Below are positions 4,589-9,376 of a stretch of DNA of 27,561 bases, in pieces. Position 1 is the stretch's first letter. Each line of letters starts with the position of its first letter. Source of the DNA: a virus; IMG/VR virus record IMGVR_UViG_3300035698_001291, positions 1 to 27,561 of that record; one strand, written 5' to 3'. The position numbers and the translations under genes were made by a program. The notes beneath the pieces are model-generated. The model saw only the letters and a program-made list of their open reading frames with translations. It was not told the origin of the DNA and ran no database searches.

Positions 4589-4672
4589 GGTAGATTCGCA
4601 TAATGGTATTGCAACAGTTTGCTAAACTGTCGGCTGTTAGCTGTGTAGGTTCGAATCCTTCATCTACCGCCA
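4589..4672 (+). tRNA. tRNA-Ser (GCT)
   Basis: Acceptor stem GGTAGAT/ATCTACC (7 pairs), D arm GCA...TGC with GG in the loop, anticodon stem ACAGT/ACTGT with loop TTGCTAA (anticodon GCT, reads AGC/AGU). It has a long variable arm (GGCT/AGCT) as expected for serine. The T loop is TTCGAAT with one T-T mismatch in its stem. CCA is encoded. Confidence 0.9.
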
Positions 4673-4676
4673 ATAA

Positions 4677-4765
4677 TGCTGGTTTGAGCAGTGTGGTGTG
4701 CTTAGCAGACTGTAAATCTGTGGTCTATAATGGGCATTGTGGTTCGATTCCACAACCAGCAACCA
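4677..4765 (+). tRNA. tRNA-Tyr (GTA)
   Basis: Acceptor TGCTGGT/ACCAGCA with encoded CCA, D stem GAGC/GCTT, anticodon stem GCAGA/TCTGT with loop CTGTAAA (anticodon GTA). The variable arm is long (GTCT/GGGC with G-T pairs), as in bacterial tyrosine tRNAs. T stem TGTGG/CCACA is perfect. It is not an amber suppressor (that would need CTA). Confidence 0.9.
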
Positions 4766-4769
4766 AAAT

Positions 4770-4855
4770 GGAAAGTACCGCTGAGTGGTCGGCAAAACGG
4801 TTTGAACCCGTTGGCGTGGTTAAACATGGGCGTTCGATTCGTCTACTTTCCTCCA
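4770..4855 (+). tRNA. tRNA-Ser (TGA)
   Basis: Acceptor GGAAAGT/ACTTTCC, anticodon stem AACGG/CCGTT with loop TTTGAAC (anticodon TGA, reads UCN codons, mainly UCA). It has a long variable arm, T stem GGGCG/CGTCT with wobble pairs, and CCA encoded. The terL ribosome site starts within a few bases of its 3' end. Confidence 0.88.
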
Positions 4856-4865
4856 AAAAGGATAT

Positions 4866-7178
4866 ATGACCAAGAAGCCAAATAAAAAGCAACTCCAAGA
4901 GCGATTAAAATCTCTTGAGCTAAAGGAATCAAAGGTACTAGCATCTATGGTGCAGTATAAAGAGGATAATAAACTTGAGTTTTTTACTCGTCCTAATCCT
5001 TTACAAGAGAAACTATTAAAGGCATGGGATAATCCATACTATAAGGTTTTTACGTTTACTGGTGGGAACAGAATCGGAAAATGTGCGACTATTAGCACCC
5101 CTATTCAAACTCCTAACGGCACTAAAACAATGGGAGAGCTTTATAAAGATGGTAAGCCGTTTGATGTTTACGCATGGAATGGTAAGGAGCAGGTGGTCGC
5201 AAAAGCATCTGCCCCTTTTAAGAAAGATAAACTACATAGGTGTTACCGTGTTGAAATGTCAGACGGTACTATTTTAGAGCTTGCTGACAAGCATCGTGTC
5301 TTAACTTCGCACGGGTGGTCTTACGTTGAGCAGCTTCACACATTCTTTGATACCCTTCTGGACTCCAGTTTGGAACACGCCCTTTCAGTTCTTGAGCAAG
5401 ATGTTCTGCATTTGAGCCGAAAAGCATTAAATTCTCAGGTAGATTGTTCTGACTATCGCCGTCAATGTGATGAACAACCTCTTTCTTTGTCAGATATCTT
5501 CCGATCTTTTTCTCCATTACGAGCCTATGTTCAGCGACTTTTCTCTGTTTTGTACAGTTTGGATGCTCTGGACAATATATGTACCAGTAACCACTCGTCA
5601 AACAACGACCGCCTTTCCAATCTGGATGTCCTGCGCCACTCCGTGGCCCTGTTCTTTGAGTCTTTATCCCGTATCGCCTACAAAACTTTGTCATTTTCTT
5701 ACTTGGGATACCAGTTATATCCGATACTTTCCAGTGTTGAAGTTTCTGTACCTCAATTAAGTCACGAAGTTGCTCAACGTCAACGATTCTCTTTGCACTC
5801 ATGTGATACTCCTCTAAAAGTTATAGGTTACAATCAGATTAAAAATATCACACTTATTCCCACCCGTCAAGATGTTTATGATTTTGAAGTAGAAAAGTAT
5901 CATAATTATTTTGCTGGCGGTATAGTGCATCATAATACTACAATAGGTGCGGTTCTTGCTCAATCTACTGCTTTTGGTGAGTATATTTGGAACGGTACAA
6001 AGCTTTTATTTCCACATAACAAGCCTCGTAAGATTCGTTATATAGGTCAGGATTGGGAGAGACAGATTAAAGCTGTTGTAATTCCTGAATTAGAGAAGTG
6101 GTGGCCTAAAAACCGACCATTGAAGAAGAAAAAGAACAGTCAGGGAGTGGAAGCACTTTGGACTGATTTAACAACTGGCAGCACAATAGAGATTCTTTCT
6201 AATGGTCAGGAGTCAGACCTGCATGAAGGTTGGAAGGGTGACTTAATTATATATGATGAGCCTCCAAAACGAGATATCAGGGTAGCAAATGCAAGAGGAT
6301 TAGTGGATAGGACAGGTAGAGAACTGTTCTGCATGACACTTTTAAAAGAAGCTTGGGTAGACAGAGAAGTTATCCGGGCAGTAGATGAAGATGGCAGACC
6401 TGATATGTCGGTTTTCAATGTTCATGGTGACATATATGCAAATGTAGGCTTTGGAATCACAGAAGAAGGCGTGAAACAATTTGCCAAAACTTTGACGGAT
6501 GATGAGAAGGATGCAAGGCTAAAAGGCATACCGTCATATATGAGTGGTCTTGTATATCCTCAGTATGACAGAAAAGTTCACCTAATGGACAGATTTAAAC
6601 TTCCTATTGATTGGGTTATAGACATAGCTATTGATATTCATCCAAGAGAGAAACAAGCTGTATTATTTTGTGCAGTAGCTCCAGACGGGAGAAAGTATCT
6701 TATAAATGAGATATGGAATCATGGTGATGGTAAATGGGTTGGTCAGGAGATCATGCGTTGCGTTAAGTTAAATTCCTATAGGGTAGGTACTATTATTATT
6801 GATCCTCTCTCTAAGGGTGACAGAAACAACGATAACACAGTATTTGATAAGATACAACTAGAACTATGGCGATATGGTTATATGCTAGGGACTGCTACTA
6901 AAGATAAAACTTCTGGCATACTGGAAATTAAGAATCATTTGATGGGTGCTAATAAAGAGCCATCTATTTTTATATTCAATGACATGATCCGTACAATATT
7001 TGAGATTGAGGGTTATATGTACGACAAAGAAACTCAGAAGCCAAAAGATGCGGACGATCATATGATGGAGAACCTTTACAGACTAATGTTGCTCAACACA
7101 GAATGGACACCTGTTGAGATGTATGATGAAGAAGAAGATTATTCCGAAGAGGGAAGGAGTGCCGTAGGTGGATATTAA
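4866..7178 (+). CDS. terL: Large terminase subunit (TerL) precursor containing an intein
   Basis: 770-residue precursor; ATG at 4866 with AAAGGA just upstream. Removing the intein (residues 73-357) leaves 485 residues, normal for TerL, the ATP-driven motor and nuclease that packages phage DNA into the prohead. The ATPase P-loop is GGNRIGK (66-72) joined after splicing to TT (358-359). Walker B is LIIYDEP (460-466). Nuclease acidic residues are likely D590 (AIDIH), D646 (IIIDP) and the DADDH cluster at 728-732. Without splicing the P-loop lacks its Thr and the protein should be inactive. The portal gene follows after one small gene. The intein and its antisense endonuclease are listed separately. 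Confidence 0.93.
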   Translation: MTKKPNKKQLQERLKSLELKESKVLASMVQYKEDNKLEFFTRPNPLQEKLLKAWDNPYYKVFTFTGGNRIGKCATISTPIQTPNGTKTMGELYKDGKPFDVYAWNGKEQVVAKASAPFKKDKLHRCYRVEMSDGTILELADKHRVLTSHGWSYVEQLHTFFDTLLDSSLEHALSVLEQDVLHLSRKALNSQVDCSDYRRQCDEQPLSLSDIFRSFSPLRAYVQRLFSVLYSLDALDNICTSNHSSNNDRLSNLDVLRHSVALFFESLSRIAYKTLSFSYLGYQLYPILSSVEVSVPQLSHEVAQRQRFSLHSCDTPLKVIGYNQIKNITLIPTRQDVYDFEVEKYHNYFAGGIVHHNTTIGAVLAQSTAFGEYIWNGTKLLFPHNKPRKIRYIGQDWERQIKAVVIPELEKWWPKNRPLKKKKNSQGVEALWTDLTTGSTIEILSNGQESDLHEGWKGDLIIYDEPPKRDIRVANARGLVDRTGRELFCMTLLKEAWVDREVIRAVDEDGRPDMSVFNVHGDIYANVGFGITEEGVKQFAKTLTDDEKDARLKGIPSYMSGLVYPQYDRKVHLMDRFKLPIDWVIDIAIDIHPREKQAVLFCAVAPDGRKYLINEIWNHGDGKWVGQEIMRCVKLNSYRVGTIIIDPLSKGDRNNDNTVFDKIQLELWRYGYMLGTATKDKTSGILEIKNHLMGANKEPSIFIFNDMIRTIFEIEGYMYDKETQKPKDADDHMMENLYRLMLLNTEWTPVEMYDEEEDYSEEGRSAVGGY
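5269..5802 (-). CDS. HNH homing endonuclease encoded antisense inside the intein
   Basis: 177 residues on the minus strand, ATG at 5802 with AGAGGAG six bases upstream, TAG at 5271-5269. Residues about 8-50 look like a helix-turn-helix DNA-binding region (WKVSDITGIPSKKMTKFCRR), followed by the linker GAGHPDWKGGR (56-66) usual in phage HNH enzymes. The HNH_3-type core is at 91-135: EHRLVMEKKIGRYL, VVHHIDGDSQNNLPENL with His111/His112 and Asn120, and a final His134. Such enzymes nick or cut DNA and drive homing of introns and inteins. The gene fills the intein between its splicing domains, and its last about 25 codons lie opposite block B. Its function in homing is inferred. Confidence 0.9.
   Translation of the reverse strand: MSAKRIVDVEQLRDLIEVQKLQHWKVSDITGIPSKKMTKFCRRYGIKTQRTGPRSGAGHPDWKGGRCLTSGYWYIYCPEHPNCTKQRKVAEHRLVMEKKIGRYLTKKEVVHHIDGDSQNNLPENLMLFGSNAEHLAQELKGRVPNWSPEGYQRMCEAAQRKTTRAKLRHDACQQALK
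5809..5815 (-). promoter_or_regulatory. Ribosome-binding site of the antisense HNH gene
   Basis: AGAGGAG on the minus strand, six bases before the ATG at 5802. On the plus strand the same bases encode Thr-Pro-Leu of the intein just before its C-terminal splicing part. A strong, well-spaced site here argues that the antisense frame is a real gene. Confidence 0.8.
5842..5870 (-). promoter_or_regulatory. Candidate promoter of the antisense HNH gene
   Basis: Minus strand TTGACG (5870-5865), a 17-base spacer, then TATTTT (5847-5842) preceded by TG at the extended -10 position. The predicted start near 5835 leaves a leader of about 33 bases. It lies within the coding sequence of intein block F. 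The -10 is only 4 of 6, but spacing and extended -10 are good. Confidence 0.55.
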
Positions 7179-7429: not shown

Positions 7430-9376
7430 ATGGATATTAAAGCAAAGTTACTAGATAAATTTATAGCATCAGAAAACATTGCAGAGGATTTAGATAAAGA
7501 TGTCTTAGATAAGATTGGTGCAAAAGTTGTGCGTGGGTACAATATAGATTTAAAATCTAACGATAAAAGAAACGAAATAAATAAAAAGGCTATGAAATTA
7601 GCCGAGCAAGTATACGAAGAGAAAACTTTTCCGTGGCCTAATGCTGCAAGCGTTAAATATCCATTAATAACAGTAGCAACAATCCAGTTTGCAAGTAGAG
7701 CATTACCAGAATTAATACCAAGTTCCAAGATAGCCAATTTCCAGATAGTCGGTAAAGATATTGATAAGCAAAAAGAAGAACGCTCAGAGAGATTAAGTAC
7801 GTTCATGGACTACCAATTAACTAAAGACATGGATAATTGGGTAGATGATATGGACAAAATGTTACATAATTTACCTATAGTCGGGGATTGCTTCAAGAAA
7901 ATCTATTAGAGTAGCCTTGAAAAGAAGGTTATTGATGATTTTCTAACTTGTGATGATGTAATTGTAAATAAAAAGGCCAAAAGTTTAAAGAAAGCAAGAA
8001 GAGTAACACACAAATTTTATAAATACGATAATGATATTAAAGAAAGAGTAAACGCTGGACTATGGCTTGATGAAGATATTGGTTATGCAAAAGGAGAGGA
8101 CGAAGATGATCCTCATTTAATATTAGAACAACATAGATGGATGGATTTAGACGGTGACGATTATGAAGAACCTTATATAGTAACAGTTCACAAAGAGTCA
8201 GGCAAGGTTCTAAGGATATTAGCTCGGTATGATGCAAAAGGGATAGAGCTAGAAGGCAACAAGCTAATGAGGATAGACCCACTACACTTCTTTGTTAAAT
8301 ACAAATTCATTCCAAGTCTTGATAACAGTTTCTATGATATTGGATTTGGGACGTTATTATATCCCATTAACAGCTCTATCAACTCTTTGATTAACCAACT
8401 ATTAGATGCAGGAACTTTAGCGAATACAGGGGGTGGTTTTCTCGCTAGGGGCGTAAAGATGCGTGGTGGTAAAATTAAGTTTGCACCTGGAGAATGGAAA
8501 GTTACTGACGTAATGGGGCAGGACTTAAAAAACGGAATTATGCCACTACCGATTAGAGATCCTTCACAAGTCTTATTCCAATTATTGGGGCTTTTGATAT
8601 CAGCAGGTAAAGATATTTCATCAGTACAAGATGCTATGTCTGGTCAGAAACCGGGCGAAAATGTTTCTGCTGCTACAGTTACAGCTTTGATAGAACAAGG
8701 TTTAAAGGTTTTTAGTGGTATTTATAAACGTATTTATCGTTCGTTAAGTGAAGAATTAAAGATGATTTATGCGCTTAATGCTAAATATGGAGATGTCGAA
8801 AAATATAAAGACGTTGTAGATGTTGAAGTAACAGCCAACGATTTCACATCAGAAGGATATGATTTAATTCCTTCCGCAGATCCAGAGTTTTCTTTAGATG
8901 TTCAGAGAGTTGGAAAAGCAGAAGCATTATTAAAAATCTCTGGTAGACCGGGATTAAATGAAGATTTGGTAACAAAAGAATATATCAAATCCATTAAAGC
9001 ACCAGATGAGATGTTTGTAGCACCAGATCAAAGACCACAACCGCCACCTAATCCAGACATGGAAAAGATTGCGATTGAATATGCAAAGTTAGATTTAAAG
9101 AAGAAAAGTTCCAACTTAGAGAACATGAAATTATTTGCTGAGATAGAAGCTTTAAGAGCAAAGGCTATTCAGTTTATAGCGAAGGCAGAAGCAGAAGAGG
9201 AAGGGCAACAGTTAGATGAATATAAGGCATTTATTGATGAACTAGGTATGAAGATGAAAGGAATGAAAGATGCTGATGGAGGAGGAGTTCGTGGCATGGA
9301 GGGCGCAACCAATAACAAAGCAGGTAATCAAAATACTCAGAAAGCAAAAGGAGGCACTGGTCAACAGCCTAATTAA
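7430..9376 (+). CDS. Portal protein, frame interrupted by one TAG codon
   Basis: The frame from ATG 7430 (AAGGA upstream) to TAA 9376 is 648 codons, matching a podovirus portal, the dodecameric ring for DNA entry and head-tail joining. Typical segments include FPWPNAASVKYPLI near residue 65, LPIVGDCFKKIY before the TAG, and INSSINSLINQLLDAGTLAN and DISSVQDAMSGQKPGENVSA in the second part. A single TAG at codon 160 (7907-7909) splits it. The reading frame is the same on both sides and the 77 codons between the TAG and the next ATG (8141) still read as portal-like sequence. No ribosome site precedes that ATG. The C-terminus is a charged helix and Gly/Gln-rich tail. Confidence 0.85.
7907..7909 (+). 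other. In-frame amber codon inside the portal gene
   Basis: TAG between KKIY and SSLEKK. It is one substitution from Tyr, Gln, Lys, Trp, Glu, Ser or Leu codons. TAG is used as a normal stop by several other genes in the window (for example those ending at 2737, 9792, 11010 and 25822), so it is not reassigned genome-wide, and none of the three tRNAs reads UAG. Confidence 0.85.

Follow-up and report, generated by a model that had tools for sequence, protein, structure and literature searches.

Endonuclease genes of inteins and related elements

The endonuclease of an intein has been viewed either as encoded in frame with the splicing protein or as supplied by a paired freestanding gene. Canonical large inteins, with insertion sites in P-loops, consist of two Hint halves whose blocks B and F flank an endonuclease segment (LAGLIDADG, rarely HNH) read in the same frame. 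Where an intein is split and a freestanding endonuclease gene stands between the two parts, the arrangement is known as ‘fractured genes’; in these, too, the endonuclease gene is separate from the splicing polypeptide, but the host gene is broken. A different arrangement is found in a 27,561-nucleotide stretch of viral DNA (IMG/VR virus record IMGVR_UViG_3300035698_001291, positions 1 to 27,561; this whole stretch is referred to as the window). Here an intein in the terminase gene terL contains, on its complementary strand, a complete gene for an HNH endonuclease. The intein resembles the canonical large inteins in its Hint halves and P-loop site, yet the middle of its sense reading is predicted to be disordered and the host gene is one contiguous open reading frame (ORF). 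A structural study placed every endonuclease domain within inteins at one conserved insertion site (PMC6801210), and the antisense gene likewise lies between blocks B and F, the usual place of the endonuclease segment. The new aspect is the strand of the endonuclease gene.

The closest earlier report is that of the ShiLan domain, a hidden out-of-frame HNH endonuclease in an insert of a mycobacteriophage methylase (Arsenault, Gosselin and Gogarten 2025, PMC11855218). The two elements share an insert free of stops in the host frame, an HNH coded in another frame, a scattered distribution and a poorly structured host-frame reading, and the ShiLan HNH core weakly matches the HNH described here. 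The ShiLan HNH, however, lies on the host strand, and its insert has no splicing domains and stays in the protein (PMC11855218). In the genome of phage Bipolar (L267), the ShiLan HNH was indeed found on the methylase's own strand; the present element, with its antisense gene and splicing domains, is not of this type. Whilst ShiLan has no detectable ribosome-binding site and its translation is unexplained (PMC11855218), the gene considered here has Shine-Dalgarno and promoter-like sites. A likeness of another kind is offered by the nuclear group I introns Dir.S956-2 and Dsq.L2066 of Didymium, which carry antisense homing endonuclease genes whose expression and cleavage have been shown (PMC9548176). 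In these introns the endonuclease gene is also opposite in strand to the splicing element. The latter is a ribozyme, however, and so does not require its sense strand to remain open for translation; the enzyme is of the His-Cys box type and the location eukaryotic ribosomal DNA. Among open-access papers no report of an antisense endonuclease gene in an intein was found, though an earlier report may exist elsewhere; this agrees with an earlier note on this DNA, made from the letters alone, whose author knew of no such gene in a contiguous intein.

Coding on the two strands of the terL intein

The earlier note had described an intein in TerL running from Cys73 to Asn357 and followed by Thr, an intein frame devoid of endonuclease motifs and, on the minus strand from 5802 to 5269, a 177-residue HNH gene with a helix-turn-helix and an HNH_3 core. 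It had also suggested profile searches of both translations. These searches returned Intein_splicing on the sense strand and HNH_3 on the antisense strand, and all three descriptions held.

The terL ORF (4866-7178, plus strand) is contiguous and codes for 770 amino acids (aa). Its N-extein of 72 aa (4866..5081) ends in ...TGGNRIGK within the Walker A motif; the intein of 285 aa (5082..5936), from C1 to HHN285, comes next, and then the C-extein of 413 aa plus stop (5937..7178), with Thr at the +1 position. The limits of the exteins are supported by intein-less TerL homologues (L003, L004 and others), which are continuous across the site, GGNRIGK being followed directly by TTIG. Once spliced, TerL would measure 485 aa, as computed from the predicted intein boundaries.

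By every sequence test applied, the insert is an intein. The Pfam model Intein_splicing matches it at 1.2e-10 and the NCBIfam models intein_Nterm and intein_Cterm (TIGR01445/TIGR01443) match it as well, all above cut-off. Across 38 inteins compared, C1, the block B His (H71), D267 and N285 are invariant, while the +1 residue is Thr or Ser in nearly all homologues and Cys in two; with its N-terminal Cys, block B His, block F, terminal Asn and +1 residue, the window intein bears the sequence hallmarks of class 1 Hint inteins. An AlphaFold model adopts the Hint fold and is grouped by Foldseek with the DnaB, RecA and DnaE inteins (E 6e-5). In this model the predicted local distance difference test score (pLDDT) is 92-98 over residues 1-90 of the N-terminal splicing half, which holds blocks A and B (5082..5372), and 95-98 over residues 251-285 of the C-terminal half, which holds blocks F and G (5805..5936). 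The 144-residue filler between them (5373..5804) is the sense reading of the HNH gene; with a pLDDT below 50 at almost every position from 98 to 241, it is predicted to be disordered. The filler has neither a known domain nor a Pfam match, and in a Pfam profile search no endonuclease family matched the sense reading of the intein, unlike canonical large inteins. Nor is it a mini-intein, since these lack an endonuclease segment and span about 130-150 aa.

The antisense gene (5269..5802, minus strand) codes for a 177-aa protein with helix-turn-helix-like helices at its N-terminal end, an HNH_3 core and a C-terminal helix. The Pfam model HNH_3 matches this product at 4.9e-10 and the phage HNH family phrog_10730 at 9.5e-26, while H112, N120, N124 and H134 are invariant among 64 HNH homologues. 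The alignments thereby establish catalytic conservation in both proteins as well as the anatomy of the element. The AlphaFold2 model of the HNH protein has a pLDDT of 93, and its best structural match in Foldseek, albeit a weak one (probability 0.80, E 0.16), is I-HmuI (1u3e); a PDB sequence search with the protein gave nothing useful. On these matches the enzyme is an HNH_3 protein and I-HmuI-like, sharing the core of the I-HmuI type but differing in domain order, as its helix-turn-helix-like helices are N-terminal. In the structure predictions, the splicing halves and the HNH each fold in their own region only. Some nested genes have a second, upstream partial match to the HNH model (L020:2842-2988, also L285, L320, L146 and L147), perhaps a duplicated DNA-binding segment.

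Viral and genome contigs were scanned with TerL, HNH and their alignments, giving 77 non-identical HNH genes that lie antisense inside inteins with the host ORF open throughout (68 clusters at 90% identity, 62 at 70%). Opposite these genes the sense frame, 12,402 codons in all, contains 0 stops, compared with 396-401 expected when synonymous codons are redrawn, although the nested class is itself defined by zero sense stops, which counts against taking this figure at face value. Given that definition, the informative points are that the pattern is all-or-none in the nearest relatives, that the other frames are untouched and that only one phase occurs; the first two argue against an artefact. 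The same phase contains 574 stops in 147 other HNH relatives (572-616 expected), and the remaining two opposite-strand frames of the 77 nested genes contain 429 (423-432 expected) and 629 (485-556 expected), near or above expectation. The antisense phase is offset 1 in 77/77 nested cases, whereas the chance antisense ORFs of freestanding HNH relatives are nearly all at offset 0.

Substitutions also differ between the regions. Between the window and L001, the HNH stretch has 16, 15 and 75 differences at HNH codon positions 1, 2 and 3, the last of which is sense-frame position 2, whereas the splicing blocks have 17, 10 and 45 at the respective sense codon positions. The HNH is 87% identical between the two and its sense reading 51%; other pairs agree. 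Comparisons of this kind indicate that, in dozens of lineages, selection acts on both strands of one stretch of DNA, keeping a folded enzyme encoded on the first and, on the second, a loop that is free of stops and would be spliced out. An antisense frame broken by stops opposite a conserved sense middle, which the earlier note had named as grounds for abandoning its reading, was not seen; instead the antisense frame is conserved and the sense middle drifts. Its central claim, that the intein is contiguous and has an HNH gene antisense to it, gains support from this two-frame selection, the conserved catalytic residues of both proteins, the structure predictions and the many loci.

Distribution, mobility and expression signals

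The carriers comprise uncultured viruses, two contigs from bacterial metagenome-assembled genomes (L185, L186) and nine cultured phages. Seven of the latter are Pectobacterium phages (Taid, Pappous, Sabo, Koroua, Amona, Ymer and Abuela), the others being Dickeya phage Setonix and Pseudoalteromonas phage PHS3. In three annotated Pectobacterium phage records the host ORF, the TerL precursor, is labelled a hypothetical protein and the HNH is unannotated; in the GenBank annotation of PHS3 (L271, KX912252.1) the HNH is called and TerL is cut off at the intein, with the sense frame open for 708 codons. The two-strand arrangement offers a reason why annotation misses both genes, and its carriage by the cultured Pectobacterium phages and PHS3 opens it to direct testing. 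Host genes include several terminase families, terL accounting for most, as well as a primase-MCM protein, a ResIII/DEAD helicase and an SMC-like protein. These proteins are P-loop ATPases and the insertion sites cluster in their Walker A motifs. On this distribution, the class of elements is real, recurrent and apparently mobile. The phage collection held no nucleotide match to the window, and the plasmid collection gave only low-identity HNH matches, their nesting status aside. A strictly single origin of nesting is not shown by the HNH tree, which requires 8 label changes, at least 4 of them forced.

Mobility of the unit is supported by the comparison of a filled allele (L135) with an empty one (L347). 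Their left flanks are 99.6% identical and their right flanks identical over 3.3 kb, and the difference between them is exactly 885 bp, the intein with its antisense gene, at a codon boundary, and the target is not duplicated. L346 provides another empty allele for this comparison. Three mismatches that distinguish the filled allele lie at most 350 bp to the left of the insertion site, which fits co-conversion, though they are few. On a tree of 63 TerL proteins, 50 close relatives are without the element, and accounting for the 13 carriers takes 13 changes, of which well-supported branches force 12. The scattered distribution and the near-identical pair of filled and empty phages bear out the earlier note's suggestion that the whole unit spreads. 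Distances between HNH proteins correlate with those between splicing domains (Mantel r 0.74, 0/2000 permutations), indicating that the two parts move together and are co-inherited. Mini-inteins of 130-132 aa (L166, L167) occupy the same site as the inteins of L021 and L152. Their HNH segment is absent, while both splicing halves keep 76-87% DNA identity and terL is intact. The search for homologues that the note had proposed has thus found the antisense gene retained in 77 copies and absent from mini-inteins at the same site. Inteins at one site thus occur both with and without the endonuclease, and another site is found both filled and empty, which is what the homing-cycle model would predict.

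Canonical in-frame arrangements provide a contrast. An intein in L018 (4227-5219) has, by eye, an HNH-like segment in the sense frame, and the TerL of L343 (790-3816) is interrupted twice, in the P-loop by a mini-intein lacking the HNH and, ahead of the DEPP motif, by a larger intein-like insert that is read in frame. Near this same second site the TerL of L011 (152-2682) is interrupted, its halves lying in different frames; a sequencing frameshift could account for this, as could a second intein that is broken or split.

In the window, the HNH gene is preceded by a Shine-Dalgarno sequence, AGGAG (5809..5813, minus strand), 6 nt upstream of the ATG at 5802. A putative antisense sigma-70 promoter with an extended -10, TTGACG-17-TATTTT, lies in the code for block F (5842..5870, minus strand); the match is much stronger in relatives, and in the window itself such a promoter is only suggestive. 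An in-frame start with a Shine-Dalgarno sequence of at least 4 nt is present in 56/77 copies (47 of these starts are ATG), compared with 13.7% of out-of-frame ATGs, a comparison biased in favour of the nested set by its use of the best of several starts per copy. Within the final 135 nt of intein-coding sequence, antisense sigma-70-like promoters scoring at least 10/12 occur in 23/77 nested copies, three of them perfect, in 0/19 HNH-less mini-inteins and in 1/308 antisense extein segments, the related copies and the mini-inteins being non-independent samples. Scores of 9/12 are uninformative, being reached by mini-inteins also; the sets separate only at 10/12 or more.

Proposed mode of action and alternatives

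The element is very probably a mobile intein with its homing endonuclease encoded separately, by a gene on the complementary strand. From sequence we infer that the protein splices, that the antisense gene is expressed and that its product cleaves the empty site specifically, as follows. Translation of the host mRNA for the P-loop ATPase (TerL in this case) would run across the whole insert; the two Hint halves would then fold around the disordered loop and excise, leaving TerL whole. Within the intein, the block F promoter and Shine-Dalgarno sequence, where detectable, and then the ORF would form an antisense transcription unit that yields the I-HmuI-like HNH enzyme. The likely target of this enzyme is the Walker A sequence of alleles without the intein, and repair of the cut would copy the whole element; the filled and empty alleles and the scatter of the carriers lend such cleavage indirect support. 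Several observations, besides the way in which the nested class was drawn, weigh against this reading. Most copies come from metagenomic contigs, 21/77 copies have no Shine-Dalgarno sequence of 4 nt or more, the promoter match of the window is weak (9/12 with an extended -10) and promoter-like sites over the whole stretch occur at chance number.

A passenger HNH gene, accommodated in a harmless loop of an intein that moves by general recombination and directed at a target elsewhere, is an unlikely alternative. Related freestanding HNH genes exist (L024), which would suit a passenger. Against this, the HNH and the splicing domains co-vary, the whole unit is either exactly inserted or absent, and the scatter of the carriers over the TerL tree is as great as it can be. 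Given that terL makes up most of the host genes and that the HNH of HK97 acts with the terminase (discussed in PMC10448857), the protein might instead serve DNA packaging together with TerL, like the terminase-adjacent HNH proteins of HK97-like phages. This role seems very improbable and was dropped, because the element is also found in the primase-MCM protein, the ResIII/DEAD helicase and the SMC-like protein, the 50 close TerL relatives lack the HNH, and mini-intein derivatives have lost it with terL intact.

Accidental antisense ORFs are common, and freestanding members of the HNH family display them at offset 0, so one of the two frames might be a chance opening opposite a real gene. That is scarcely credible here: the stop counts (0 against about 400 expected), the restriction to offset 1, the invariant catalytic residues of both proteins, the codon-position flip and the folding of each protein in its own region alone refute it. 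With the antisense endonuclease genes of the Didymium introns as precedent (PMC9548176), removal of the insert at the RNA level is conceivable, as is a split intein. The chance of either is vanishingly small, as the intein catalytic residues are invariant and the sense frame is open in 77/77 copies; a group I intron was rejected on an Rfam scan of the window, which returned a tRNA match only and no intron family, and a split intein on the presence of a single 770-aa ORF instead of two host ORFs.

Beyond the preferred reading of a mobile intein with an antisense endonuclease gene, the elements may constitute a widespread, distinct lineage that is bidirectional and mobile, a proposition for and against which the balance is even. 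The lineage would descend from few inversion events and jump between P-loop ATPase genes of different families. Its endonuclease gene would be transcribed antisense as a unit complete in itself, equipped with a promoter and a Shine-Dalgarno sequence, and so be expressed independently in time and amount of the host gene and of splicing. The element is a natural laboratory for two-strand coding. It suggests a simple route by which an intein could gain or lose an endonuclease, and offers a means of expressing the latter apart from the host protein.

Downstream of terL, the portal gene (7430-9376, plus strand) is interrupted at 7907-7909 by one in-frame TAG, the codons before and after which remain open (CFKKIY*SSLEKK); nonsense mutation, sequencing error and readthrough cannot be told apart as its cause. 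Directly upstream of terL, at 4589-4855 on the plus strand, lie genes for three tRNAs, Ser-GCT, Tyr-GTA and Ser-TGA.
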